The notes: generated by a model not told the origin, from the sequence alone. Positions 19,809 through 35,988 are shown, counted from the first letter of the stretch. The stretch is 64,000 nt of DNA from Candidatus Poseidoniaceae archaeon (GCA_028356125.1 JAOMTZ010000004.1:1-64000), one strand, 5' to 3'. Numbers and translations are program-made.

Positions 19809-20954
19809 ATGTCAAGAGTCGCAATATGTGGTGTCGCTCGTACTCCAATTGGTAAATTCAGAGGCAGCCTCTCCAATTTGAGTGCTGTAGAGTTAGGCAT
19901 TCGTTCGGTTAAGGAATTGCTGAGTCGATGCAATATTGACCCGTCAAGCGGTGTAATCGATGAGGTATTATTCGGCCAAGTTCTCCAGGCTGGAGCTGGC
20001 CAAGCACCAGCGCGTCAGGTTGCATTAGGTGCCGGACTACCAAACTCTACTGCCGCAACTACCATCAACAAAGTATGCGGCTCTTCACTGAAAGCTGCAA
20101 TGATAGCTGCCAACAGTATCAAGGCTGGAGAATACAAGGCTATCATCGCTGGTGGAATGGAGAGCATGACAAATGCTCCTAAGTTTGAGAAGCGCAATGG
20201 CGAAGAAAAAGAAATGGTTTCAACTATGGTTCACGATGGATTATGGGATGTTTACAACGATGTTCACATGGGTAATACTGGAGAAATTGTTGCCAATGAG
20301 TGTAATATCTCTAGAGAAAAAATGGATGCTTTCGCAGCCAGTTCTCAAAACAAAGCAGCAGAGGCTGAAGCAAACGGCTGGTTTGACTGGGAAAGGTTCG
20401 ACATGCCTGAACTCTCCACAGATGAGGGAGTTCGTGCAGGAACAACTGCAGAAAAATTAGCAGGCCTCAGGCCAGTATTCCAAGATGATGGGATGGTTAC
20501 AGCAGGTAACGCATCAACTCTCAATGACGGTGCTTCTGCAGTATTGGTTGCTGACGAAGATTTCGCTAAGGAAAATGGCTGGGAAATAATTGCAATTATT
20601 GAGGACTACTGCACCGCAGGTGTGGAACCTCACCGTGTAATGTATGCCCCAGTTCCAGCGATCAAGATGTTACTTGAGAGAGCGAATATGGATGTAATGG
20701 ATGTTGATGTTTACGAACACAATGAAGCATTTGCAAGCGCATCATGCGCAGTTGCCCAAGACGTAGGAATCCCAGATGACAGATTCAATCTTCACGGTGG
20801 AGCCGTTGCTCTGGGCCATCCGCTCGGAAGTAGCGGAACTCGCTGTCTGATCACAATGATTGGAGTAATGCGCAGACTTGAGGCTAAGAGCGGAATTGTT
20901 TCTCTTTGCCTTGGCGGCGGGAATGCAGTAGCAATGAGAATTTCACTCGCATAA
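19809..20954 (+). CDS. atoB: Acetyl-CoA C-acetyltransferase (thiolase)
   Basis: Condenses two acetyl-CoA or cleaves 3-ketoacyl-CoA. The nucleophilic Cys is C90 in NKVCGSSLKA. The catalytic His and second Cys motifs are NEAFA, GGAVALGHPLGSSGTR and CLGGGNAVA. At 381 residues it is the usual length for degradative or biosynthetic thiolases (about 390). Whether it feeds the mevalonate route or fatty-acid breakdown cannot be told from context. It is the last ordinary housekeeping gene before the accessory island. A T-rich run follows its stop. Confidence 0.92.
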   Translation: MSRVAICGVARTPIGKFRGSLSNLSAVELGIRSVKELLSRCNIDPSSGVIDEVLFGQVLQAGAGQAPARQVALGAGLPNSTAATTINKVCGSSLKAAMIAANSIKAGEYKAIIAGGMESMTNAPKFEKRNGEEKEMVSTMVHDGLWDVYNDVHMGNTGEIVANECNISREKMDAFAASSQNKAAEAEANGWFDWERFDMPELSTDEGVRAGTTAEKLAGLRPVFQDDGMVTAGNASTLNDGASAVLVADEDFAKENGWEIIAIIEDYCTAGVEPHRVMYAPVPAIKMLLERANMDVMDVDVYEHNEAFASASCAVAQDVGIPDDRFNLHGGAVALGHPLGSSGTRCLITMIGVMRRLEAKSGIVSLCLGGGNAVAMRISLA

Positions 20955-20990
20955 ATCGAGGGCAGTCGGCTTTTTAGTAGTAGATGTCCT

Positions 20991-21009
20991 TATATCGAGT
21001 AGCGATATA
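20991..21009. promoter_or_regulatory. Inverted repeat at the promoter and start of the ATPase/TOPRIM cassette
   Basis: TATATCG-AGTAG-CGATATA has 7-bp arms around a 5-bp centre and ends 3 bp before the first ATG of the ATPase gene. The left arm sits in a TATA-like TTATAT element. It could be an operator overlapping the promoter. If the TATA element is used, a leaderless start at the second ATG (21019) becomes likely. Confidence 0.45.
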
Positions 21010-21012
21010 GCC

Positions 21013-23229
21013 ATGGATATGGTCAGTCGTTTTGAAAAGATTGTCATCGAAGGGCTCTTCGGTAGCAAAGAACCCGTGCAAATTGATTTCGATAAAAGAG
21101 ATCCAGTTAGGATTCTATACGGACTTAATGCCTCAGGTAAGACTACGGTAATGAAAATAATTCAACATTCATATTGTTGGAACCCCTTAGAACTACTAAA
21201 ATTGCCATTCAAATCGATTACTTATTCTCTTAACAAACGAGGCGGCTATAGTGCGGAATCCTATTTGAAAGGGTATGAGTCTGCGGGTACTACTGATTCA
21301 AAACCACCGCCTAAGTTCGATGAATCAGAACCAGCTCAAGATAAATTGCAACAGGATTTAGATGAGTTGAATCAAATTTTGGATGATATTGAATCAAACG
21401 AAGAGCAAATGAAAAAATTACATGATTTATTGAATAGCGGAGATTTTCCTACTAATCTTGATAGAAAATCTGTAAAAACAGATTATTTCAATACTCAATC
21501 CCAACAGAAGAATCTCAGGCAGATGGTGCCAGATTTCGAGCTTAGCACTAATTTTTGGCTACATCAACTTATGGAGCAATTGCCTATTCCTCAAAATAAG
21601 CCTCACGAAGATAATCCATCTAATTCGTACAATGATTATACATGGGGAGATAACGTTGAGTTATTCGAAGATACAGGAGACATTGATCTCAGAATATCAG
21701 CACAGTTTGATCATTCTATCAAGTTGAAGGTTGGAAAAATCGAGCAAGAACCTGAACAAATTTATTTCTCTCAGTTCCAAGACTTCCGTACACAAAAGGT
21801 AGGGAAATATTTCAGAATAACTCAAACATCAGAACCAATTATAGACTTTGAAAACAGAGTAATAAAATCCTTGTTGGACACTTGGTCCCGAATAATTTCG
21901 TTGAGAAGTCTTCACAGATTAGAGGGCTGGACGGGATGGAAATTTCAAAAGTTATACTTCGGCGAAGAGGAAGAAGAATTGTTGCGAATGCCAGATCTTT
22001 ATGATCTGTGGGAAAGTGATTGGGAGAAGATTGAATCGAGATTGACCGATTATAGTATCTCTAGAAATTATAGTGGTGATGGAAGTCTAAAACCAGATAT
22101 TGAAAATTATATTCAAATTCTACACAATAGCACTCAACAGGTAATTGATGCAAATGAATTCTTAACACACCATATTTCTGCTGATTTGAATATACACGCT
22201 AAAAAGGGAATGAGGGAAATTAAAAGAGGTTCTCCGAGGGCCAGGGATGGGGGGCATAGAAATTTTTCTCCAATCATGAAAACTCCAAATCTAATATCGT
22301 CCTTTTTTGATTACAGGAAAACAAAGCTAGCAGAGTTTGATTGGGGCGATGATAGAACAAAATTTTATGTTTTACCTCCTAAAATCCTCAATATTTCTAC
22401 AGAAAGAAAGAATGATGATGTTTACTACCACAAATTCTGTAAGGACTTCAAACGGACAATAAACGGTCACGAGGATACTATTGAGCGAATGGAATCCAGA
22501 ATCTCTGCAAAGAAGTCAGCAATGCATTTACCGCATGATAGAACTTATAATTCTAGGTCAAGAGATGATATTAATGATGTTCTTAAGCGAGGTTTTGATA
22601 TAGACTATGGAAAGTTTTTTCAGTTTGACGAGTGGGAAAAAAAGTATGGCTTTTTATCTCGATTCATTGGGGATGCACCGGTTAGTTCAGAATTCGATTT
22701 AGGTAGGTATGCGCAAGAAAACAATCTTTGGGAGAATGAAGCAGAAGGTACTGACATCATAACTTTGCATGAAATATCTGAGTGTTTTAATTCAATAGTT
22801 AAACAGCAAGAATTGGATAATTTAAACCAGTATCTAAATGACAATTTCGAGAATATTTCTTTTGATATAGAGAATGGAATTATCATACAAAATGAGCAAC
22901 AACTCAGGTTCTCCCAATTATCATCCGGAATAAGACAGAAATTCCGTATTTTCACTAGTGTTGCAATGCAGGTCATCTCTGCTGCAAAATCGTTGATCTT
23001 AATCGATGAGCCCGAAATTTCGTTACATTTGTCTTGGCAACGAACATTCGTTGATGACATAACCTCATTTCTGAAAGATTTAGTTTCAGATGCCAGAGTT
23101 CAATTTGATGAAGAAGAGGATTTAGAAAGTGTAATTTCAATAATAATTTCTACACACTCACCTGCGATTTTAGCTAATCATTATCATCGAGGTCAGCAAG
23201 TAGGGGAGAGTGATTTCGAAGATGAATGA
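21013..23229 (+). CDS. AAA/SMC-like ATPase of a PARIS-like two-gene defence cassette
   Basis: A 738-residue ABC/RecF-type ATPase. Walker A is GLNASGKT (residues 37-44), after a short IDFDKRDPVRILYG strand. An ABC-like signature FSQLSSGIRQKF is near 635-645. Walker B is LILIDEPEISLH (661-672), followed by a switch-like STHSPAIL motif. The roughly 580-residue middle carries charged, helical stretches, probably a coiled-coil or dimerisation arm. It overlaps the TOPRIM-like gene by 8 bp. ATPases of this kind paired with a DUF4435/TOPRIM partner are known as AriA in PARIS phage-defence systems and are related to OLD nucleases; the assignment is inference. It is longer than typical AriA. ATG 21019 is an alternative start. 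Confidence 0.8.
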   Translation: MDMVSRFEKIVIEGLFGSKEPVQIDFDKRDPVRILYGLNASGKTTVMKIIQHSYCWNPLELLKLPFKSITYSLNKRGGYSAESYLKGYESAGTTDSKPPPKFDESEPAQDKLQQDLDELNQILDDIESNEEQMKKLHDLLNSGDFPTNLDRKSVKTDYFNTQSQQKNLRQMVPDFELSTNFWLHQLMEQLPIPQNKPHEDNPSNSYNDYTWGDNVELFEDTGDIDLRISAQFDHSIKLKVGKIEQEPEQIYFSQFQDFRTQKVGKYFRITQTSEPIIDFENRVIKSLLDTWSRIISLRSLHRLEGWTGWKFQKLYFGEEEEELLRMPDLYDLWESDWEKIESRLTDYSISRNYSGDGSLKPDIENYIQILHNSTQQVIDANEFLTHHISADLNIHAKKGMREIKRGSPRARDGGHRNFSPIMKTPNLISSFFDYRKTKLAEFDWGDDRTKFYVLPPKILNISTERKNDDVYYHKFCKDFKRTINGHEDTIERMESRISAKKSAMHLPHDRTYNSRSRDDINDVLKRGFDIDYGKFFQFDEWEKKYGFLSRFIGDAPVSSEFDLGRYAQENNLWENEAEGTDIITLHEISECFNSIVKQQELDNLNQYLNDNFENISFDIENGIIIQNEQQLRFSQLSSGIRQKFRIFTSVAMQVISAAKSLILIDEPEISLHLSWQRTFVDDITSFLKDLVSDARVQFDEEEDLESVISIIISTHSPAILANHYHRGQQVGESDFEDE

Positions 23230-24244
23230 AATCAGAACCCGGCCGGAGATGGAAGAGGACTTTCTGAATATTACCAAAGCAGAAATTAGAATGGGGCAAT
23301 ATGATATTGAACAACCAGTTGTTATTGTTGAAGGGATATTAGATTCTAAGGTGTTTGGAAAAATAAGGTCGTCTAATTTGAATGTCATTTCAATAGAAAA
23401 ACTAATTCGAGCAACGCTCAAAAAGAAAACATCAGAACGAAAGAAATTAACAAAAGTTGTTCTACATAAATTTGAAAACAAAGAAAGGGTAAATTTGACT
23501 AAAAAGCATGGAGTCAAGGAACTTGTGGGTGCTATATGCGATTTATTTATCGAGAAAGGTTTCACATTTGTTTTTGGTATACAGGATGCTGACAAAGAAG
23601 GCATTACTAATCTGATCAGATCAGGGAAATTCGAATCCAGGAACAAAAAACCATTTTTATTTCAAACATTGCCATCTAGAGACATTGAAATGTTGTTATA
23701 TTCTCAACTGCGGAGTGGAGATATTTTCCAACCAGGTTTCCCTAAAGATTTCTTGAATTGCACAGAAAGAGCAAACCAACTTGCATTCATGGGCTTTGGC
23801 CTTGAGAAATTCAATAAGAAAAAAGTAATCAAAGGAGAATATTTTGGTCTAAAATCATTCTCAGGAACAGAGAGTTCAAACAGTAAAAGATATTTCGAGT
23901 CATGTATTTCAACGGATTCAATAATTGACAGTTTTGTAGAGTTTTATGACGATAAATTTGATCAAGACTCCAAAGAAAAATTGAAGTTAATAGTTGAGAC
24001 AAAGAAAGAACAACTAACCAGTCTTAATTTACACTGGTCTAGTCTCGGGCGAGGTCATGATTTAGAAAAGTTACTTCAATATCCTAATCCTGGCTGGACT
24101 GAAAAAGAGTTTAACACACTTATGATCTGTCTGCTTGACTATGGCTGTCTAAAGGACCATAAAATGTTTCAATCCATAGAACATTGGAGGAAGCAAAATA
24201 ATTCACCCCGACTATTTGTCTCTTCTAAAATAGAAGAGGAATAG
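23222..24244 (+). CDS. TOPRIM/DUF4435-like effector of the ATPase cassette
   Basis: A 340-residue protein. An early strand followed by VIVEGILDSKVF (E37-G38, D41) and a later FVFGIQDADKEG (D122, D124) reproduce the E...DxD metal-binding arrangement of TOPRIM nucleases and of DUF4435 proteins such as PARIS AriB. The C-terminal half is helical and unrecognised. The ATG at 23222 lies inside the end of the ATPase gene, so translation is coupled; an ATG 12 bp upstream is open. The stop lies 2 bp from the convergent beta-propeller gene. In PARIS the partner is a nuclease released when the ATPase senses infection; that role here is inferred from family and gene order. Confidence 0.7.
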   Translation: MNEIRTRPEMEEDFLNITKAEIRMGQYDIEQPVVIVEGILDSKVFGKIRSSNLNVISIEKLIRATLKKKTSERKKLTKVVLHKFENKERVNLTKKHGVKELVGAICDLFIEKGFTFVFGIQDADKEGITNLIRSGKFESRNKKPFLFQTLPSRDIEMLLYSQLRSGDIFQPGFPKDFLNCTERANQLAFMGFGLEKFNKKKVIKGEYFGLKSFSGTESSNSKRYFESCISTDSIIDSFVEFYDDKFDQDSKEKLKLIVETKKEQLTSLNLHWSSLGRGHDLEKLLQYPNPGWTEKEFNTLMICLLDYGCLKDHKMFQSIEHWRKQNNSPRLFVSSKIEEE

Positions 24245-24246
24245 CA

Positions 24247-25146
24247 TCATTCAGATATTAGTTGTTGGATTGAGAATATTTTTCGGGTTTCCGACATACT
24301 GACTTCTAACTCAAAGGTTTCAGAGTTTTTATTGAATGGGATGTAGCAAATTTTAGCACCAGTTCTTTCAGTAGGTGAGTCAGTAATCACCTTGTAATAA
24401 TCCTGATTACTTTCTCTAATTGCTGTCGTTCCAACATACATTCCTTCATCGGTAACAGCTAACCCTCTCGTCCAACCCAATTCAGATTGGTAATCTGCCA
24501 AATTCCAAAATTCCTCAGAGTTTGAAATCGTGCCACCTACGGTAGTGAACCAAATTTTCCCATCAATGTATTCTACATCATGCACGGGGCTAGAGTGCTT
24601 GCCGCCTATCCATTCCCACTTACCTAAATTGAGAATTCTTTGTTGTCTTACTAGCCCAATAATCACATCTCCTTCTTCATCAATCGTCACACTAGATATA
24701 TGATGGAGATGGGGCTTAGTATCCTGGTCTTGAGAATATAGTGGGCGCAACTTACGCATCCCTTCTCCGAGAAGATCAAATCGCACAAGTTCCCTAGTTT
24801 CTAAATTGATGATGTCTACAGATTCGTTTCCTGTATTTGCAATGTAAAGGTGATTATGGCGAATCTCAATACTGTGAAGGTCATTGAAATATTCATTTTC
24901 AATCATGTCTTGAATCGAGAAATCATCCAAGGATATCTTCACAATTACGTTAGAAAAACAAGCCCAAACATAGTCGCCATCAATAGCGATTCCAGTGATT
25001 CCTTTACCCAAAACTGCAATTTCTGGCTTAGGGTGTTGTATTTCTTTATCTGAGACAACTACCAATCCTTCAGTGGTCTTTTCGATAACTGTAAGTAGAC
25101 CCAATGTTTGGTCGAAAAATCCTCCTGATACCAGCAATATTTGCAT
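24247..25146 (-). CDS. Beta-propeller-like protein, last gene of six-gene operon
   Basis: A 299-residue protein with no signal peptide. Repeated strand-turn patterns ending in phrases such as GITGIAIDGDYVWACF, LHSIEIRHNHLYIANTGN, SSVTIDEEGDVIIGL, HDVEYIDGKIWFTTVGG and RGLAVTDEGMYVGTT are typical of NHL- or SMP-type beta-propeller blades; I count about five or six. A histidine cluster (KPHLHHIS) may mark a metal or active site as in SMP30-like lactonases, which is speculative. It begins 4 bp after the NodB-like gene, the only junction in the operon without overlap. Molecular function unknown. Confidence 0.65.
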   Translation of the reverse strand: MQILLVSGGFFDQTLGLLTVIEKTTEGLVVVSDKEIQHPKPEIAVLGKGITGIAIDGDYVWACFSNVIVKISLDDFSIQDMIENEYFNDLHSIEIRHNHLYIANTGNESVDIINLETRELVRFDLLGEGMRKLRPLYSQDQDTKPHLHHISSVTIDEEGDVIIGLVRQQRILNLGKWEWIGGKHSSPVHDVEYIDGKIWFTTVGGTISNSEEFWNLADYQSELGWTRGLAVTDEGMYVGTTAIRESNQDYYKVITDSPTERTGAKICYIPFNKNSETFELEVSMSETRKIFSIQQLISE

Positions 25147-25150
25147 ATAT

Positions 25151-25921
25151 TCAACTCCAAATCTGCCGTGTTATCAGGTCAGGATGGCTAACATTCCCCG
25201 ATTCGATATCGAGGCCAAATTGTTTGGTAAATCCTGCTTGCTTAGCGATGTTGCAAGTTCGCATTGTACATCTTCCTTCAGGCCATGCTAGCCATGGCTC
25301 ACCACCTGCTCTTTCAATTTCAATTCGAGCCTGAGTCAAACCCTGCAACAACTGCTCATCTTTGTCAAATCGCATATCATGATGGTCGTGCGCATGTGAG
25401 GCAATAATCCACCCCTCATCAACTAATTTTTCAATTTCTTCTGTGCCCAAAACCTGAGCTGAAGAATTAGTCTTTGGAATTTCTAAATCATCTAGTATCG
25501 AGTGTTGAAGATTTTCAGAAAGAGATTTGAGACCTTCCCTGGTTATACCTAATTCCGGAATTGAGTTTATGTCAACAGACCAATGGTCGCACCAGGCGTA
25601 CAATCTTGATAGAGGGAGTAGTCTAGAATTACCTAGAATTTGGTCATGAGTTAGGAACAGAACTGGTTGCAACTTCTTCGCTTGACGAAAATAATCAGTC
25701 AAAGACAGAACATCAGACCAACCATCGTCGAATGTTATCAACACAGAGTTATCGGCATAGCCTCTTGATGTAGCAGTTGAGTTCAGCGAATCAAGTCTGA
25801 TAATTAGATCGCTTAGTTCTACAGACATTCCTATCTTGTGACTAATGTTATGATTTACTCTTGGTGAGCCCTGATGTATTCTATGAAGACAAGGTATTTC
25901 AATGCTAAAATTAGTGATCAT
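25151..25921 (-). CDS. NodB-like polysaccharide deacetylase (CE4)
   Basis: A 256-residue predicted hydrolase of acetamido or related amide groups. The motif-1 signature is TFDDGWSD (FDDGW at residues 64-68). The metal-binding motif-2 counterpart is SHAHDHHDMRF, and WPEGRC resembles the conserved Arg/Pro region. The ATG overlaps the upstream NAT-like stop as ATGA, so translation is coupled; an in-frame ATG 15 bp upstream was not preferred. No signal peptide, so the substrate is likely cytoplasmic and small rather than wall polysaccharide. Confidence 0.78.
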   Translation of the reverse strand: MITNFSIEIPCLHRIHQGSPRVNHNISHKIGMSVELSDLIIRLDSLNSTATSRGYADNSVLITFDDGWSDVLSLTDYFRQAKKLQPVLFLTHDQILGNSRLLPLSRLYAWCDHWSVDINSIPELGITREGLKSLSENLQHSILDDLEIPKTNSSAQVLGTEEIEKLVDEGWIIASHAHDHHDMRFDKDEQLLQGLTQARIEIERAGGEPWLAWPEGRCTMRTCNIAKQAGFTKQFGLDIESGNVSHPDLITRQIWS

Positions 25922-26715
25922 GCAACGACCTCCCAAAGTTTAGAAATTCTAGAATTAACTCCAAGGAAGTCATTGATTTTGATTGGATGGATGTTCTCCT
26001 CAATCCAGTGATTTAATTCATCTTCATTTTGTAATTCAACTGTTGTTGTTTGTGTATTTACCCTCTTGTCTCGCAAAATAATCCAATCTTCTTCGGCCCA
26101 CTTGTTGAAACGTATTCCTGTCAAAAAAGGACCATATCCTGGTACCGTGTAATGCTGCAGATAAGTTTGTTCAAAGTAACTCAGTTCTACAAAGTTCAAG
26201 TCAAAATGATAGTTAGTATACCAGTCCTTGTTTCCAATTAAATGCTGAATCTCCCATCTACCATTAGCCTCGACAAGTCGATACTTTAGGAATGGATGAG
26301 ATTGAACAGATTCATCTCCTATCCTGATTATTGAGAAATATGGGAAACCATTGCCTGGGTCACACCACCAATCTTCATCGTCGATTCTAACTACAATAGC
26401 AATGTGACAATCTGGTTGCATAATTGTGGCAGCTACTAATTTTGCATCATAGCCAAGTTTCACTAATACCTGGTGAATGAATGGATTTCTTACAGTGCAA
26501 ATGCCACCTACTGCCGACAACATTTGCCCTTTGATATCATCCCATGTTGGTACTTCTCTAGCATTACTTAGCATTGTCAAATTTTGAAATGGAATCTTCT
26601 CTATTGTTTTTGAAATAATTTCAACTAAGAAAGGTAGGTTACATTCGCTCCTCGACAAATCTAGAAGTTTCAAGAATTTATCAACTTCAGAATCTGATAA
26701 CCAATCTTGGGTCAT
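25918..26715 (-). CDS. Arylamine N-acetyltransferase-like acyltransferase
   Basis: A 265-residue member of the NAT family with an intact Cys-His-Asp triad: C73 in GGICTVRN, H104 in DCHIAIVV and D119 in CDPGNG. Family members move acyl groups from CoA to amines; relatives act as amide synthases that release or cyclise natural products. It has ATGA overlaps with genes on both sides, so production is coupled to the M20-like and NodB-like enzymes. The N-terminal RxPFxN region is present as KIPFQNL. Substrate unknown. Confidence 0.8.
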   Translation of the reverse strand: MTQDWLSDSEVDKFLKLLDLSRSECNLPFLVEIISKTIEKIPFQNLTMLSNAREVPTWDDIKGQMLSAVGGICTVRNPFIHQVLVKLGYDAKLVAATIMQPDCHIAIVVRIDDEDWWCDPGNGFPYFSIIRIGDESVQSHPFLKYRLVEANGRWEIQHLIGNKDWYTNYHFDLNFVELSYFEQTYLQHYTVPGYGPFLTGIRFNKWAEEDWIILRDKRVNTQTTTVELQNEDELNHWIEENIHPIKINDFLGVNSRISKLWEVVA

Positions 26716-27539
26716 GCCAAAGCCTCCTCAAAAACAACCTTCAGATGCGAAGCACAAAGTGGAAGGTAACTCATGTCTATCGCTTCATCAGTGCCATGAA
26801 CTCTTACTGAGTCATCATTCGGACCTATTGCAAGATACGCCTTTCCCTTTAGTAAGTGAGCAATACATGGACACCTATTTTCTCCAAATGCCTTCGACAT
26901 CACTCTATTTCGGACCTTAGTCTCCTTATTTTCTACTTGATTTATATCAGATAGTCTGAGGTTTATTCTGTCAATAGTGTCGTTCTGTCCAACATATAGT
27001 ACTCTCTGGTCACCATTCTTGAAGAAGTAACCAGTCTCATCAATCCAGAAGTCAACATCAGGCAATTCCAATGTTGGATAGACCTGATGGGCCCAAGGTG
27101 AGCCAATCTCCTCTTCTCCCTGGATAACAAATAACAATCCAACATCTGGCATATTTTCTTCGATATAGATCAACCGCTGAACAAATGGTCCAATGTTGTC
27201 CGCAATACCTCTTCCGAATAGCATACCATCTCGAACTTCTGCATTCCAAGGATCTGTATTCCATTCATCTACATCCGCAGGCTCAACATCATAATGGTGG
27301 AAGAAGCCAATCCAATTATCTCCTGAATTAGGAGGCTTAGATGCTACAATTACCGGTCTGTAAGATGCTTGAGGGTCAACATGAGTTACAATGTCAAAAC
27401 CAATCCTTTCCATCCAATCAATCAAGTTCTTTGATGCCACTTCTAAGCCAGAAGGATTGGTCTCTATCGCCTTCATAGAAATCCATTCAGATGACTTTTC
27501 AATCCATCTAATTTGCATCTCTTCAGTCCATTCACTCAA
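26712..27539 (-). CDS. Short M20-family metallohydrolase (ArgE/DapE/ACY1-like)
   Basis: A 275-residue protein with the catalytic-domain motifs of M20 peptidases and deacylases: HHYDVEP (H82, D84), GRGIADNIGP (bridging D114) and the general-base pair GEEEIGS (E142-E143). Most M20 enzymes have 350-450 residues because a lid or dimerisation domain is inserted; here the segment after the Glu pair is very short, so that domain seems mostly lost. The last part (GENRCPCIAHLL and later residues) may hold replacement metal ligands. Overlaps by 4 bp at both ends with its operon neighbours. Probably removes an acyl or aminoacyl group from a small molecule. Confidence 0.75.
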   Translation of the reverse strand: MSEWTEEMQIRWIEKSSEWISMKAIETNPSGLEVASKNLIDWMERIGFDIVTHVDPQASYRPVIVASKPPNSGDNWIGFFHHYDVEPADVDEWNTDPWNAEVRDGMLFGRGIADNIGPFVQRLIYIEENMPDVGLLFVIQGEEEIGSPWAHQVYPTLELPDVDFWIDETGYFFKNGDQRVLYVGQNDTIDRINLRLSDINQVENKETKVRNRVMSKAFGENRCPCIAHLLKGKAYLAIGPNDDSVRVHGTDEAIDMSYLPLCASHLKVVFEEALA

Positions 27540-28948
27540 GCTTCCACCTCCTCATGTTGAATCGCATCATGGAAGATTACAAATTGACTCTTAACTGCCA
27601 AATGGTATGTCTCAAAGACATCTGGATTCATCTTCAATTGTGAAGTTACATCTATTCCCTTCTCTATGAACTTAGTCAATGGTATTCTAAGTTCATCTTG
27701 TAGATTGTTTACCAGATTTAGAGAGTTTCTAAAAGATTCAAGCTGTCTCTCACATCTTTCGATCAAGATATCTTCTGCACCAATTGAATTATTATTGGCA
27801 TAGTGTCTTTGAAAGGACGCTCCAATTAGATCAACCTTTAACCTCCTCATCCAATTATGTAGTCCAGAATCCGGAGTCCAATTCTCAGCAAAATTATCAC
27901 GAATGTGCCTAAGAGGTAATGGGAAGTGTCCCAGGCAACCTCCTCGCTTTTGCACCATAAGGGACCATATTGTATCGCCCCTACGTGGTATCTTCGGGTG
28001 GTCAGTTTCATGCAACAAACCGTGATTGAAAATTATGGTATTACCTCCTCTAATGTAGCGGTTTTCTTGGATTGGAAAATTCGAACACGTTGCAACCAAA
28101 GGTCTAGCAAGTATTCCGACTTCAAGTAGATTCCAGAGGATTTCATCACTACCAACACTATTAGAGTCCAATTTCCATGGCTGATTATTTCTACTAACGT
28201 CTGAAAGATCGTAATAGTAATCCCTCTCACCCCATCTTTCCTTGTCAGACCTAGCTGCTATGCCGGAAATGTTAGCATTTAGATCTACCAAGTTTGTGTT
28301 AAGTGTAGATGATGCGGGTAATGGTGGTGCACCAGTAACGTCTCCAAGGCCAATATCAATCCTTGGATACATCTCATGGAATCTCCATATTTCATGGAAA
28401 AACGACCAAGGCCTGCTAAGTTGTACTTCACCATTCTGCGTGACCAGTGCATCAAATGCAAGGTCATCATCTAACCACAGAATGATTGGGTCATCGTCCT
28501 TTGGAAGGTTACGAATAAATTGCATAGCACATTCTCTAGCATTGGTTAATTCTGAAATTCCGCTAGATGAATTGCATTCTTCATAGGTGAACTTAACTCC
28601 CGAATTCTCCAATCTTTGGATATGGCCATCATTCTCTTGTATAATCTTAACAGAACGTTCGCCACGCAACTGCAGATGAAACCGGACAATTGGTTGCCCG
28701 TCACATTGAGCTTGAAGCAAACCAGTTCCTTCAGCTGACAAAATCATCGAATCAATGATGTCACCGAGTGGACAAAAACGATCGGTAGCAATCACGATTT
28801 GGAAAGGTCTTCTCTTTCCATTAGCAGCCTCGTAAGTCAATCTTCTAGCGATAGCTAGATTTTCCAAATCTTGTTGCCAATCTGAGCACCCATATTGCTC
28901 AAAGCAAATGCTACTAAGCGGGCTGAAATAAGGCTCGTTGCAGCTCAT
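27536..28948 (-). CDS. Glycosyltransferase-like protein with DDD motif
   Basis: A 470-residue soluble protein. Features that fit a GT-A type glycosyltransferase are an early strand QIVIATDRFCPLGD, a SELTNARECA helix like the nucleotide-binding region of GT2 enzymes, the acidic ILWLDDDLAF (D160-D162) as metal/UDP-sugar motif, and later RGGNTIIFN and PRRGDTIW. The C-terminal third is helical. The family cannot be named with certainty. It shares ATGA overlaps with both neighbours. It would supply the glycosidic step of whatever the operon makes. Confidence 0.6.
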   Translation of the reverse strand: MSCNEPYFSPLSSICFEQYGCSDWQQDLENLAIARRLTYEAANGKRRPFQIVIATDRFCPLGDIIDSMILSAEGTGLLQAQCDGQPIVRFHLQLRGERSVKIIQENDGHIQRLENSGVKFTYEECNSSSGISELTNARECAMQFIRNLPKDDDPIILWLDDDLAFDALVTQNGEVQLSRPWSFFHEIWRFHEMYPRIDIGLGDVTGAPPLPASSTLNTNLVDLNANISGIAARSDKERWGERDYYYDLSDVSRNNQPWKLDSNSVGSDEILWNLLEVGILARPLVATCSNFPIQENRYIRGGNTIIFNHGLLHETDHPKIPRRGDTIWSLMVQKRGGCLGHFPLPLRHIRDNFAENWTPDSGLHNWMRRLKVDLIGASFQRHYANNNSIGAEDILIERCERQLESFRNSLNLVNNLQDELRIPLTKFIEKGIDVTSQLKMNPDVFETYHLAVKSQFVIFHDAIQHEEVEA

Positions 28949-29838
28949 GCTGCCACCGCCTTTGAGTTGTTTAATGTCATGGGTTGAGGAAGATTTGGCT
29001 TGGCGCCACCCACTTCCCCAGGGTTGTATAGCGGTTGAGCCTCATCTACTAAAAGTTTGAGGATATTACCACTTAGTTCATTTGAGGCTGAAAGAACATC
29101 GTTTATTTTGAACAGAATATCATAGCTATTTGAGGTGTCAAATGCAGGCGAGTAATCCTCGCTCTTCAAAATTAATCGTGCCCCATCGAGGTCGAAATAT
29201 GCGATTTGATAATAGTAATATGTTGTGATCGAGTATTCTGTCATACCATCAGAATCTTCACTCCAATAAGTTTGAGTCTCACTCCCTTGCATATTTTTGT
29301 GATCAATGCACTTCAAGTTCTTCAAGAAGTAAACTCCTTCCTTTGTAATGATTTCAGGAGATATTTCAATTCTATCACCCTTGTTTAAATCATCAGTATG
29401 TAGTCGATTCACATAACCAATCTTTGATATCCATCTTGGCTCATCCAAAACAATATTTCGTCCATTATAGAATTCTTCAACTAGCTTATTTTCTCTGTTT
29501 CTCCTAATCATTCCTGGCGTGGTAAAGAATAATTCCACAAGCAGAACAACTGGTAGATACTTAACCGTGAATACTGCAGTCATTACGACTTCTAGAAAAC
29601 CATCTGCCGACATCTCTGAAACCTCACCGAATATGAGTTCGATAAAGAAAAAAAGTGAGTTAATACAGAATAACAACATGATAAAGAATGTAGAAACGAT
29701 TCCGAAAAAGCAACTAAAGGGCAAAAAGAATATCCTTTTCTTCTTGTATAGTGAAAAATGTTCTGACTTTACATTCTTGTCCAGAAACTCTCTATCAGAA
29801 TATTGTGCGTATCCTGCGAGGGGGCCAGTAGCCGACAT
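28945..29838 (-). CDS. Membrane protein heading the six-gene operon
   Basis: A 297-residue protein. A cytoplasmic N-terminus leads to two or three hydrophobic helices between residues 38 and 110 (LPFSCFFGIVSTFFIMLLF and VKYLPVVLLVELFF). A soluble domain follows with a run of Tyr and beta strands (SITTYYYYQIAYFDLDGARLIL). The C-terminal 22 residues are low-complexity (VGGAKPNLPQPMTLNNSKA). Not recognised. ATG 29838 is preferred over TTG 29841. First gene of the operon; its stop overlaps the glycosyltransferase-like start (ATGA). It may be the membrane exit or sensor of the pathway. Confidence 0.6.
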   Translation of the reverse strand: MSATGPLAGYAQYSDREFLDKNVKSEHFSLYKKKRIFFLPFSCFFGIVSTFFIMLLFCINSLFFFIELIFGEVSEMSADGFLEVVMTAVFTVKYLPVVLLVELFFTTPGMIRRNRENKLVEEFYNGRNIVLDEPRWISKIGYVNRLHTDDLNKGDRIEISPEIITKEGVYFLKNLKCIDHKNMQGSETQTYWSEDSDGMTEYSITTYYYYQIAYFDLDGARLILKSEDYSPAFDTSNSYDILFKINDVLSASNELSGNILKLLVDEAQPLYNPGEVGGAKPNLPQPMTLNNSKAVAA

Positions 29839-29841
29839 CAA

Positions 29842-29934
29842 AACGCCTTAGACGGAAATAACTATCAATGTGGCTGTGAAAAAAGTATTTAATAGAGGAA
29901 AAATTGATATATTTTACATATTTTATATGAAATT
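29842..29934. promoter_or_regulatory. Divergent promoter region of operon and CARF-like regulator
   Basis: A 93-bp AT-rich gap between divergent genes. For the forward gene, GATATATTTT at 29905-29914 lies about 26 bp before the ATG, the distance expected for a TATA box of a leaderless archaeal transcript. For the reverse operon, TTAAATA (complement of 29887-29893) lies about 46 bp before the start. The compact layout would let the regulator control both directions. Confidence 0.5.
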
Positions 29935-30795
29935 ATGAGGGAGAGAGTAGTTCTACTTGCGCCGGTGATGTCGCGACTCGATCACGTTAGGCCAGCATTG
30001 CATAGGCTGAGTAAGATTGATGATAAGGATGTAGACGTAAGATTAATTCCTCTCCAAAACCATACAAATTCTAAGTTACAAATATTCTGTGATTTTCTAA
30101 AGAAACAAACATCGTATGGAACACTACCTGGTAGTCATACAGTCGAATTAATTCCTACTAAAGACGATTTTTTAATGTCGAACAATTGGTTTTCAAATTG
30201 GAATCTATTTCTTCATTCGATGTCTCCTCTATTGTTGAATGAATCAGGAAAAAATCGTAGTCTGGTTATTCTGTTATCTGAAACAATTCCGACTGGTATA
30301 ATTCTAGCTTCATCTATTGCAACACTGACTATACCTAATGTTCGCTTAATTGAATTCCCAGTTGGTTATGATCTAAATTCACAAGGTGACAATTTCGACC
30401 CTTCAAGGCAAATAATGGAACAGATGATAGAATTTCAAACATGGACTGGAGCCGGTATTCGTGAACCAATTATCGAATTAGCATCAAAGGCAGAAGTCTT
30501 GAAAGTCCTAGATATCATTAGAGAACTAGCAGAACTGAAAGCAATCCCATCCAAAGATAATGAATTGAATAATTTATCACTCGAGGTGTTGAAAGTTTCA
30601 GAAATAAAAGACAAATTAAATGCAAAAGAGTTTTCTCAAAACAAATCCAAAAAAACATCACCAAATATACTCTCAAATCGATTGAAGGTATTACGTAAGA
30701 ACTTAATTATTGAGAAGGTAAGCGGAAAAGCAGCATACAGAATTACAGAAACTGGGCTGGTAGTTTCTGGGTTACTTTCTAATGCCAATCAATAA
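29935..30795 (+). CDS. CARF-like domain plus winged-helix transcription regulator
   Basis: A 286-residue protein. The N-terminal half alternates hydrophobic strands and helices (RVVLLAPVMSRLDHVRPAL; SLVILLSETIPTGIILASS; VRLIEFPVGYD), a Rossmann-like order similar to CARF domains of Csa3 and haloarchaeal DUF6293-type regulators, with ETIPTG in place of the usual NxTGGT-like loop. A charged linker leads to a C-terminal winged helix (LSNRLKVLRKNLIIEKV and YRITETGLVV). It is divergent from the six-gene operon with a 96-bp intergene and probably controls it. CARF identity is moderate; no CRISPR locus is in the window. A TIGR00725/SLOG gene follows 24 bp downstream. Confidence 0.6.
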   Translation: MRERVVLLAPVMSRLDHVRPALHRLSKIDDKDVDVRLIPLQNHTNSKLQIFCDFLKKQTSYGTLPGSHTVELIPTKDDFLMSNNWFSNWNLFLHSMSPLLLNESGKNRSLVILLSETIPTGIILASSIATLTIPNVRLIEFPVGYDLNSQGDNFDPSRQIMEQMIEFQTWTGAGIREPIIELASKAEVLKVLDIIRELAELKAIPSKDNELNNLSLEVLKVSEIKDKLNAKEFSQNKSKKTSPNILSNRLKVLRKNLIIEKVSGKAAYRITETGLVVSGLLSNANQ

Positions 30796-30819
30796 ATATG
30801 GAATCGAGAGTGTGCAATT

Positions 30820-31329
30820 ATGGCAATAATATCAGTCTTTGGTTCGAATGGCGACCTCGATGAAGAGGTTCTTCAGATGGCTGAGCAAGTCGGCAAACTA
30901 ATCGTTGACATGGGCCATAGAGTCTGCTGCGGCGGTCGTGGAGGAGTAATGGAAGCTGTTGGGAAGGGCGCTAGATTGAGCGACAAATGGACTGGTGACC
31001 AAGTAATCGGTTTGATGCCTGAATCAGATGATAGTAGAGCAAACCCGTATCTTGACTTGGTTATGCCCACTGGTCTTGGTTTGTTTCGTAATACGCTTGT
31101 CGCTCAATGCGCAGAGGCGTGTATTTCTATTTCTGGCGGGGCAGGAACACTATCCGAGATTGCATTCGCTTGGCAGATTGGAAAGCCAATTGCGGCGATG
31201 GCTAATTCAGGCGGATGGTCTGAGAAACTTGCAGGCACGCATCTGGATCATAGATTTCCAGATAGGCCAATTGCTAAATTGGAAAATATTCAACAAACTA
31301 AGCAATGGATTGATTCACTGTTTGCTTGA
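30820..31329 (+). CDS. SLOG/TIGR00725-family nucleotide-binding protein
   Basis: A 169-residue Rossmann protein of the LOG/lysine-decarboxylase-like superfamily. Motifs are VFGSNGD at the N-terminus, GGRGGVMEAVGKGA and SGGAGTLSE, the nucleotide or nucleoside-monophosphate binding signatures of the family. It lacks the fully canonical PGGxGTxxE of cytokinin-activating LOG enzymes, so a sensing or hydrolase role for a small nucleotide is possible. It begins 24 bp after the CARF-like regulator and may be co-transcribed with it, or may be the first core gene after the island. Confidence 0.75.
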   Translation: MAIISVFGSNGDLDEEVLQMAEQVGKLIVDMGHRVCCGGRGGVMEAVGKGARLSDKWTGDQVIGLMPESDDSRANPYLDLVMPTGLGLFRNTLVAQCAEACISISGGAGTLSEIAFAWQIGKPIAAMANSGGWSEKLAGTHLDHRFPDRPIAKLENIQQTKQWIDSLFA

Positions 31330-31371
31330 CTAGCAACCTTTAGCAATGCGTATTTCAAGGAAATGAGTTAT

Positions 31372-33348: not shown

Positions 33349-35988
33349 TTAACAGCTCATACCTGATACCAGATTCTCAAGGTTCTTGTTCATCATCGAC
33401 ATATAGTCGTCATCAGAATCACTAGGTGCCATTTCCATTGTGTAGAGGATTTTTATGCTTACGCCTGTCTCTTCGACAATACTATCAACCGATGATTGGT
33501 CAGTGTATTCTTCAACGAATAGAACTGTAATTCCTTCTTCATTAATGTGGTTAACGACCTTTGCGATGTCTTCAGGGGAAGGTTCACCTTCTGGATCTAG
33601 TCCATGAACTGTTACGAATTCAATATCGTACCTGTAAGCCATGTAAGAGTAAGCATTGTGATTTGCAACTACTGTCTTGTCGGTACATGTTCCGTCGTTT
33701 AATTTAGTATCAAATTCAACATGCAGTTTATCCAGGGCTACCTTGAAATCTTTCGCGTTTTCTGTGAAAACATCTTCACCTTCAGGGAAGACTTCGATTA
33801 GGTGTTCTAGGATAATGTCGACTTGTACTTTGACCGCAAGAGGGTCTAGCCAGCTGTGAGGGTCATAAGCCAATTCTTCATCATGGCCTTCTTCATCATG
33901 GCCTTCTTCATCATGACCTTCCTCATCATGGTCTCCTTCTTCACCGTGGTCATCATCAGTGTTTGAAGCGGTCCACATTAAACCAGCATCCTTACAATCT
34001 TCTTCTGTAGTGATTTCAGAATTGATGGTGTGTGAGGACATGTCGTAACAAACCATGGATTCCTCACCATGGTCATCGTGGTCACTATGATCGTCATGGT
34101 CACTGTGGTCATCATGGTTGTCATTCATCAGAATGAACATCTCTAATTCAGCGGAGTGGGCAAATCCGTAATCTCCTTCAGCTTCGATGTGGATGGTTGC
34201 GTATCCCATGACGTCTTCATCATGCTCATCGTGGTCATCGTGGTCATCATGGTCATCATCCATTTCAAACATCATTCCAAGTTCTGAAGCGTTGATGTAA
34301 CTGTCATTATTCATGTCCATGTGGGCAAACATTCCTTCCAACATTTCAGTTTCGTTGTGCTCTCCATCGTGATCGTCGTGTCCATCATCATGGCCATCTT
34401 CACCGTGGTCATCATGTTCATCATGGTCGTCATCTTCCATTGCTTCCATTTCTTCCATCATGTGCATGAATTCACTCATTGATAATGCGCCATCTTCGTC
34501 TTCATCATAGGCAGTGATCATAAATTCGTTTGAAAGCGATTCCATGTTATCCATTACACCATCAACAGATTCTATGAAAGAAGGAAGTTCTGATAGTTGC
34601 AATAATGCATCACCGTCTGCATCGGAATCATTGAATGCCATCATCATCTTTTCCATCATGTATTCTTCTACTGCTTCCTCAAAGGCGCTATGCTCTTCAT
34701 GGCTATCATCGGAGTCATTATCGTCATGAGTATCATTGTGGTCGTCATGGTCATCGTCGTGGTCATCGTCTTCTGTCATTATTGCCCAGAATTCATCCCA
34801 AGATATTGCACTATCATTGTTGGCATCAAAATCTTCTATCATTTCTTCAGGTGTTGGAGGCTCTTCATGGTGGTCATCGTCTTCTTCCATCCAAGCGTGA
34901 CCTGCTGCTTCACATTCCTCTTCAGTTGAGTCATAGTTCTCGTGAGTGGATGTGTTGTGGCATTCTCCGTCATGTTCGTCATGGCCATCTTCGTCGTGGT
35001 CGTCATGTCCTTCTTCCATCCATGCGTGACCTGCAGCTTTACATTCTTCTTCAGTTGAGTCATAGTTCTCGTGAGTGGATGTGTTGTGGCATTCTCCGTC
35101 ATGTTCGTCATGACCGTCTTCGTCATGCTCATCATGGCCTTCTTCGCCATGATCACCATGGTCATGGTGTGCATGGCCGCCAAGCATCTTTAGAACAGCC
35201 ACGTTGAACTTTTCATCGTGGTGCTTGCTTTCGAATTCAATAACATATTCTCCTTCTTTTAGGTGGTAAATTGAAATTACTGAATCTGTAGGGCAGCCTT
35301 CCGGATTCATGATTGTCTCTTCTGCTTCACCGTGGCCGTGTCCCTCGTGGCCGCTGTGGTCATCATGCCCATCCTCATCGTGTCCATCTTCATCATGGTC
35401 ATCGTGTCCATCTTCGTCATGGCCGTCTTCTTCGTGGTCATCATGTTCGTCTTCATCGTGCTCTTCTTCAGCAGCTTCTACCTTGTGAGTTACCTTTTCA
35501 GCATGGAACTCATTCAATTCATCATCTAGGTGAGAGAGATGTAGGTCTTGGTAAGGACCAGATGTAAGTAATTCACATAGGTCTGTAATTAGCATTGACT
35601 CGTAGTCAAGATCAACTTCACCAGTTGGCATTGCGTGTGTGCTTCCAAATGCAGGAGCATCGGAGCCCATGGAATCCAATGTGTCTTCTGCCCACGGTTC
35701 AAGTCCTAGTCCGTGATATAGGAATAGATCAACTTCACCCAGTCTTACTATGTCTTCCAGTGTAGGAGAATAGTCGTGAACTGGAATGTTGTTCTTACTT
35801 ATCATTTCAACATTTACTGTATCTCCAGTAATTGCAGAAACCATTTGGCCTACGTGATATGTGGAAACCATTACTGTACCGTATTTCCCTTCCATTTTTT
35901 CGTCATCATCGTTATTCAAACATCCAGCAAGGCTAGATGTAATCAGTACAAAACTCACAAGCAGTGCCTTATGCCAATTGGTGCGCAT
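33349..35988 (-). CDS. znuA: ZnuA-like metal-binding lipoprotein with giant His/Asp-rich EF-hand insertion
   Basis: An 879-residue lipoprotein; the lipobox is LAGC (C23), followed by an acidic linker. The ZnuA fold is split. The N-terminal part (about 35-125) has VPVHDYSPT with the first metal His. The C-terminal part (about 700-879) has YDPHSWLDP, ANHNAYSYMAYRYD and VEEYTD. Between them lie over 500 residues of HDDHDEDGH-type repeats, four EF-hand loops with canonical spacing (DANNDSAISWDE, DADGDALLQLSE, DEDEDGALSMSE, DMNNDSYINASE) and three Cys modules of form C...TEE(E/D)CKxAGxxW. Family members have about 300 residues and only a short His loop. It delivers zinc or a similar metal to ZnuBC. 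Probably controlled by the divergent NikR-like gene. Confidence 0.88.
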   Translation of the reverse strand: MRTNWHKALLVSFVLITSSLAGCLNNDDDEKMEGKYGTVMVSTYHVGQMVSAITGDTVNVEMISKNNIPVHDYSPTLEDIVRLGEVDLFLYHGLGLEPWAEDTLDSMGSDAPAFGSTHAMPTGEVDLDYESMLITDLCELLTSGPYQDLHLSHLDDELNEFHAEKVTHKVEAAEEEHDEDEHDDHEEDGHDEDGHDDHDEDGHDEDGHDDHSGHEGHGHGEAEETIMNPEGCPTDSVISIYHLKEGEYVIEFESKHHDEKFNVAVLKMLGGHAHHDHGDHGEEGHDEHDEDGHDEHDGECHNTSTHENYDSTEEECKAAGHAWMEEGHDDHDEDGHDEHDGECHNTSTHENYDSTEEECEAAGHAWMEEDDDHHEEPPTPEEMIEDFDANNDSAISWDEFWAIMTEDDDHDDDHDDHNDTHDDNDSDDSHEEHSAFEEAVEEYMMEKMMMAFNDSDADGDALLQLSELPSFIESVDGVMDNMESLSNEFMITAYDEDEDGALSMSEFMHMMEEMEAMEDDDHDEHDDHGEDGHDDGHDDHDGEHNETEMLEGMFAHMDMNNDSYINASELGMMFEMDDDHDDHDDHDEHDEDVMGYATIHIEAEGDYGFAHSAELEMFILMNDNHDDHSDHDDHSDHDDHGEESMVCYDMSSHTINSEITTEEDCKDAGLMWTASNTDDDHGEEGDHDEEGHDEEGHDEEGHDEELAYDPHSWLDPLAVKVQVDIILEHLIEVFPEGEDVFTENAKDFKVALDKLHVEFDTKLNDGTCTDKTVVANHNAYSYMAYRYDIEFVTVHGLDPEGEPSPEDIAKVVNHINEEGITVLFVEEYTDQSSVDSIVEETGVSIKILYTMEMAPSDSDDDYMSMMNKNLENLVSGMSC
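34884..35141 (-). repeat. Tandem 129-bp duplication in the metal-binding lipoprotein
   Basis: Two nearly identical in-frame copies (34884-35012 and 35013-35141) with a period of 43 codons encode a His/Asp-rich stretch followed by ECHNTSTHENYD and TEEECKAAGHAWMEE. High nucleotide identity implies a recent duplication. Confidence 0.8.

Follow-up and report, generated by a model that had tools for sequence, protein, structure and literature searches.

An apparently undescribed, mobile gene cassette of Poseidoniales archaea and bacteria that may make a glycosylated, N-acylated small molecule

The window analyzed here, a 64,000-nucleotide stretch from Candidatus Poseidoniaceae archaeon (GCA_028356125.1, JAOMTZ010000004.1:1-64000), carries a real, rare and mobile gene cassette that is apparently undescribed. 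In our main reading, to which we assign a probability of about 0.55, it is a reduced copy of a cassette, rare and horizontally mobile, whose product is a soluble, glycosylated and N-acylated small molecule formed in the cytoplasm. The cassette and the island that carries it comprise the following features:

20955-31342, no strand: inserted island, 10.4 kb; GC 0.383 (flanks 0.442 and 0.423); empty sites in relatives
21013-23229, (+): AriA/PtuA-like AAA ATPase, outside the operon; AriA model E=3e-19
23210-24244, (+): partner of the ATPase, 344 aa, overlapping the ATPase gene; no family found, TOPRIM-like by eye only
24247-25146, (-): beta-propeller-like protein, distant to DUF4915/TIGR03032; weak Pfam match, 64% identical orthologue in G031
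25151-25936 (ATG at 25921), (-): NodB-type (CE4) polysaccharide deacetylase-like protein; PF01522 E=1.6e-14; TFDDGW, H-x3-H and WPEG motifs
25918-26715, (-): arylamine N-acetyltransferase (NAT)-fold protein with C73/H104/D119; PF00797 E=1.1e-21
26712-27539, (-): short M20 metallohydrolase without a dimerisation domain; PF01546 E=1.6e-10
27536-28948, (-): DDD-domain protein, called GT-like in an earlier note; D-x-D, RGG-T and RR-x-D-x2-W kept
28945-29841, (-): membrane protein, first operon gene; three hydrophobic segments by hydropathy
29935-30795, (+): divergent gene, probable regulator; C-terminal part winged-helix-like by eye
30820-31329, (+): SLOG cluster 4 (LOG-like) protein; PF18306 E=1.7e-31; GGAGTLSE motif
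31343-31366, (+): remnant of the thiolase 3' end, at the island's right edge; 23/24 identical to the G019 thiolase end

The six operon genes all lie on the (-) strand at the positions given by the earlier note, which had described them as coupled by ATGA overlaps with the last gene following after 4 bp. Four stop/start overlaps and the 4-bp gap (NodB/propeller) were indeed found, three of the overlaps being ATGA (membrane protein/DDD, M20/NAT and NAT/NodB), but the DDD/M20 overlap is TTGA and the start codon of the M20 gene is TTG and not ATG. The six genes stand as a co-transcribed biosynthetic set, although the true unit is wider: it adds the SLOG gene and the regulator and, in relatives, PhyH, epimerase, AsnB and NDP-sugar dehydrogenase genes. 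The SLOG cluster 4 gene, which is absent from the earlier note, belongs to the cassette unit, as it adjoins or is fused into every copy with flanking sequence covered (adjoining in the window, G112, G151, G223, UBA1959 and G418; fused to NodB in G130 and in Poribacteria); the G018 contig ends too early. The regulator has a homologue in the corresponding position in G112 (L015:3292-4143, E=4e-22), and a regulator of the Flavobacteriales locus L038 was dropped as a homologue. Counterparts of the membrane protein occur by position in G018 and G112, where they are homologous to each other and weakly similar to the window protein.

Pfam searches placed the NAT, NodB-type and M20 proteins above their cut-offs; neither the DDD protein nor the membrane protein has a Pfam family, and the propeller matches DUF4915 weakly, below the cut-off (E=8e-4). 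All the catalytic motifs that had been picked out by eye are present and conserved. The NAT protein (PF00797, 78.2 bits against a cut-off of 22.8) has its intact triad C73, H104 and D119, which is invariant in the alignment of homologues. Its relatives in the PDB include NATs and the amide synthase GdmF, so an amide-synthase role is as possible as acetyl-CoA-dependent arylamine acetylation. In the NodB-like protein (PF01522, Polysacc_deac_1, 54.4 bits against 23.1) the FDDGW motif is found as TFDDGW and the Asp-His-His metal site is complete, D65/D66 and H176/H180 being invariant across seven relatives. The HxD...D...EE pattern of the M20 protein likewise belongs to a full set of two-metal ligands (H-x-D, D, EE, D/E, H), and H82-x-D84, D114, E142-E143-E144, E168 and H248 are invariant. 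This protein has only 275 aa, its stretch from E168 to H248 is too short for the dimerisation (lid) domain, and its PDB profile matches are limited to the N-terminal catalytic part. No signal peptide or membrane segment was found in the NodB, NAT, M20 and DDD enzymes, none of which has a hydrophobic segment by hydropathy, and the chemistry is therefore probably cytoplasmic. The cassette comes without an exporter or a resistance gene.

The acidic motif of the DDD protein was found to be conserved as D160-x-D162 in nine homologues. Its earlier label, GT-like, calls for revision: homologues carry this domain on the C-terminal side of a GT2 domain, but no Pfam glycosyltransferase family matches any of nine members, the DDD alignment found nothing significant among PDB profiles, and profile comparison with GT2 was not significant (probability 2%). 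Structure prediction, which the earlier note had suggested, was uninformative for this protein; the AlphaFold model from a six-sequence alignment is of low confidence (pLDDT 48), at which fold matches are meaningless, and the fold search returned none that was significant. A glycosyltransferase role, suggested by the GT2 fusion in homologues, is therefore putative.

The operon lies within a mobile genomic island, as seen both from the empty site in relatives and from the repeat at its edge. In the window, the thiolase gene (19809-20954) and znuB (31372) are kept apart by 10.4 kb, whereas the thiolase end lies within a few bases of znuB in G019, G020, G007 and G018, and in five more relatives the spacing from thiolase to znuC leaves space for znuB alone. 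The 24-nucleotide leftover of the thiolase end at the right edge compares with a next best match of 16/24 elsewhere in the window. The thiolase ends in RISLA in both island-bearing genomes (the window and G031), unlike in the nine island-free relatives read. Neither an integrase among the island open reading frames nor a recognisable tRNA at the island edge was found. The ATPase and its partner (21013-24244) are a candidate PARIS-like or OLD-type defence pair; the AriA model fits the ATPase, and no model fits the partner. The cassette of the window probably arrived together with this pair, as an island at the thiolase 3' end. Further along, the window encodes an unusually long binding protein of zinc-ABC-transporter type (33349-35988, 879 aa) with long His/Asp/Glu-rich repeats.

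Poseidoniales are abundant archaea of the surface ocean, for which, to our knowledge, few biosynthetic clusters have been described. The set of DDD, M20, NAT and NodB genes was also found in four other Poseidoniales genomes (G018, G112, G130 and G151), a frequency of about 2% among 319 genomes of the order, and in two Flavobacteriales and one Poribacterium; the genes thus co-occur elsewhere, and the earlier note withstands the refutation by missing co-occurrence that it had itself proposed. Relatives of the DDD protein occur in 10 of the 319 genomes, of the NAT in 6 and, strongly, of the propeller in 2, and strong NAT homologues within the order are confined to this gene setting. The gene order is MEM-GT-M20-NAT-PhyH-NodB-epimerase in G018 (MEM, membrane protein; GT, DDD protein), and NDP-sugar dehydrogenase-GT-M20-NAT-PhyH-SLOG/NodB fusion-epimerase in G130, followed by a RelA/SpoT-like gene and AsnB. 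In G112 (MEM-GT-M20, then NAT-PhyH-NodB-epimerase) and G151 (GT, then NAT-PhyH-NodB) the halves stand on either side of a contig break across which we infer them to be joined. In G031 the thiolase is accompanied by an epimerase and by the propeller of 64% identity. Compared with these relatives, where the extras are an asparagine synthetase, an NDP-sugar dehydrogenase, an epimerase and a dioxygenase of PhyH type, the window copy looks reduced, because PhyH is absent from the assembled 65% of its genome and its operon has no epimerase.

A scan of GTDB contigs returned only three Poseidoniales contigs, one from Flavobacteriales (L038) and one Poribacterial (L039), the M20 alignment used as query under-sampling copies that lack M20. 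L038 carries M20, NAT, PhyH fused to NDP-sugar dehydrogenase, the DDD protein and SLOG, and L039 carries GT2+DDD, a sulfotransferase, M20, a small PhyH, NAT, PhyH, a SLOG-NodB fusion and an epimerase; a search of 85 Poribacterial genomes gave a single copy. A more distant Flavobacteriales locus (L044), found by searching around L038, contains DDD, SLOG, NodB, two methylase-like genes, a short M20, AsnB, NAT and a propeller-like gene, the last being a counterpart by position with no significant alignment to the window propeller. A plasmid search with M20 gave generic M20 matches only, and no relative was found in phage records searched with the DDD protein and the SLOG-NodB fusion or in IMG/VR contigs searched with the M20, NAT and DDD proteins. 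The novelty proposed in the earlier note stands so far as a literature search of partial coverage reaches, in which no cluster combining these families was found.

Whole clusters appear to cross domains, because the G130 and Poribacterial proteins group together in five families (M20, NAT, PhyH, NodB and SLOG) with support of 0.94-1.00, in unrooted trees of few sequences. Contamination of G130 with bacterial DNA was rejected, as a dehydrogenase neighbouring the cluster is 84% identical in the Poseidoniales genome G020 and the contig is genuinely Poseidoniales; transfer of the whole cluster between domains would be the simplest reading.

A sister form was found in G082, G030, G132 and G117, over the length that their contigs cover: GT2+DDD comes first, then a fusion of GTP cyclohydrolase II with NADAR, then AsnB, and last a small NAT-like protein and an epimerase. 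Its four genes without the epimerase also occur on a mobilizable plasmid of Pseudoalteromonas donghaensis (NZ_CP032092.1, 116683-123205; L060 13989-20511), where the operon (GT2-kinase-like-DDD, RibA-NADAR, AsnB, NAT) sits inside the tra region between traC and a LysR gene. The plasmid DDD domain matches the family profile with E=1e-79 in a two-sequence search; a Salinivibrio plasmid match (H14) was rejected, as it has GT2 domains and lacks the DDD domain. Nucleotide-handling families are represented in both forms, by SLOG in the first and by RibA-NADAR in the sister form, and because of this parallel we suspect that the cassette product is possibly nucleobase-derived. The motif GGxGTxxE (GG-x-GTL-x-E) was present in all eight SLOG proteins aligned; both LOG phosphoribohydrolases and molybdenum cofactor carrier proteins are among the closest relatives of known structure. 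Either nucleotide hydrolysis or the binding of a nucleotide-like cofactor is possible for SLOG, hydrolysis not being assured because SLOG cluster 4 also holds cofactor carriers.

From the gene content, motifs, recurrence, island with its edges and cross-domain grouping observed, we infer a chemistry, an order of steps and a product. The SLOG protein would supply or handle a nucleotide or nucleobase precursor upstream of the other steps, and the DDD-domain enzyme would join a sugar or aminosugar to an acceptor. The NodB protein could then strip an N-acetyl group from the sugar conjugate and the NAT-fold protein add another acyl group to the freed amine, or form an amide, while the short M20 enzyme may trim an amide or peptide bond. 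In the fuller copies, the NDP-sugar dehydrogenase or epimerase would ready the sugar, PhyH would hydroxylate and AsnB would amidate. The earlier proposal of building, deacylating and re-acylating a glycosylated molecule is a reasonable one and is in part supported, its glycosyltransferase step being putative.

The strongest rival is a surface-glycan module, in which the enzymes would synthesize or alter a sugar, amino or uronic, for a variable cell-surface polysaccharide or protein glycan. It owes this rank to the G130 copy, which is embedded among several glycosyltransferases, a setting that suits a surface glycan as well. Also counting against the main reading are the want of a recognised fold for the DDD protein, the missing exporter and resistance genes, the missing PhyH of the window copy and the cofactor carriers within SLOG cluster 4. 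Surface-glycan clusters also often contain NodB, AsnB, NDP-sugar dehydrogenase, epimerase, sulfotransferase and glycosyltransferase genes. We nevertheless regard this reading as doubtful. Against it stand the gene content of the island (20955-31342), which includes no flippase, no polymerase and no polyprenyl-phosphate transferase, none having been recognised by eye around the other copies either, and the sister plasmid cassette, whose four genes stand alone among tra genes; moreover, enzymes free of signal peptides and membrane segments fit it poorly, and SLOG, M20 and NAT are unusual as glycan genes. A chance run of unrelated metabolic genes is exceedingly improbable and is refuted by recurrence: Poseidoniales genomes are compact and tight gene overlaps are common in them, but seven additional genomes, from three phyla, hold the same families in an arrangement that is for the most part kept, and strong NAT homologues within Poseidoniales are found in this setting only.

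An anti-phage system, in which a nucleotide-derived product of the cassette would block phage or activate an effector encoded nearby, seems quite improbable to us. AriA-like ATPases flank the cassette in the window, G018 and G112, a prokaryotic viperin lies near the G112 copy, SLOG, NADAR and RelA/SpoT-like domains handle nucleotides, and island and plasmid cargo are locations that suit defence. Islands, however, commonly carry accessory genes alongside defence genes, so that island neighbours are weak evidence, and no recognised defence gene was seen near the Poribacterial and G418 copies. A bolder version of the small-molecule reading, which we hold to be unlikely, would see a new mobile cassette family of archaea and bacteria whose nucleobase- or GTP-derived glycoside is deacetylated, re-acylated and used in chemical or anti-phage conflict, with a new family of glycosyltransferases in the DDD proteins and with base suppliers, SLOG and RibA-NADAR, that could replace each other.

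The soluble small-molecule reading has parallels in known systems. In the Nod-factor (nodABC) and mycothiol (mshABCD) pathways, glycosyl transfer is followed by N-deacetylation and then by N-acylation or amide formation, MshB being of another family. The step logic proposed here is the same, with N-deacetylation by the NodB family, but a NAT fold replaces NodA/MshC/MshD and there is no chitin synthase. GdmF-type amide synthases (PDB 8OOM) are among the best solved relatives of the NAT-fold protein, although no polyketide synthase was seen in any locus examined. The plasmid operon NZ_CP032092.1 shares a homologous DDD domain, NAT and AsnB, but RibA-NADAR replaces SLOG, NodB and M20 are missing, and the DDD domain is fused to GT2 and a kinase-like region. 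The cytosyl nucleoside pathways of blasticidin S and gougerotin, with their release of a base, uronic sugar, glycosyl transfer and amide formation or amidation, resemble the proposed steps of the cassette by pathway logic only. The angustmycin (agm) cluster of Streptomyces likewise places a LOG/SLOG-family gene in a small-molecule cluster, its LOG enzyme AgmA supplying the free base adenine for the nucleoside product (PMC8599513). It differs in having a phosphoallulosyltransferase and an epimerase/phosphatase, and no NodB, NAT, M20 or DDD protein is among its described genes (PMC8599513).

Three protein types come to light with the cassette: an unassigned DDD-domain family, a subfamily of M20 proteins without the lid, and a fusion of SLOG with NodB. 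Since it is spread over archaea, Poribacteria and Flavobacteriales, with a plasmid sister in a culturable Pseudoalteromonas, its product is directly testable in a cultured host.

Several other genes were noted beside the copies. In G018, an AriA-like ATPase and a 245-aa partner (L014 10511-13820) lie 22 bp after the epimerase and share its strand, which makes them look like an extension of the operon. Near the cluster end in G112 (L033 6818-10205) are an AriA-like ATPase, a gene resembling nucleoside-monophosphate kinases and a prokaryotic viperin (padloc pVip E=3e-80). RelA/SpoT-like proteins with weak Pfam scores are found beside AsnB in the G130 and G112 copies (L016 345-1163 and L033 5765-6664), and NYN-domain nuclease-like genes adjoin the cluster in one Flavobacteriales (L038 5063-5902) and one Poseidoniales genome (L017 12094-12600).
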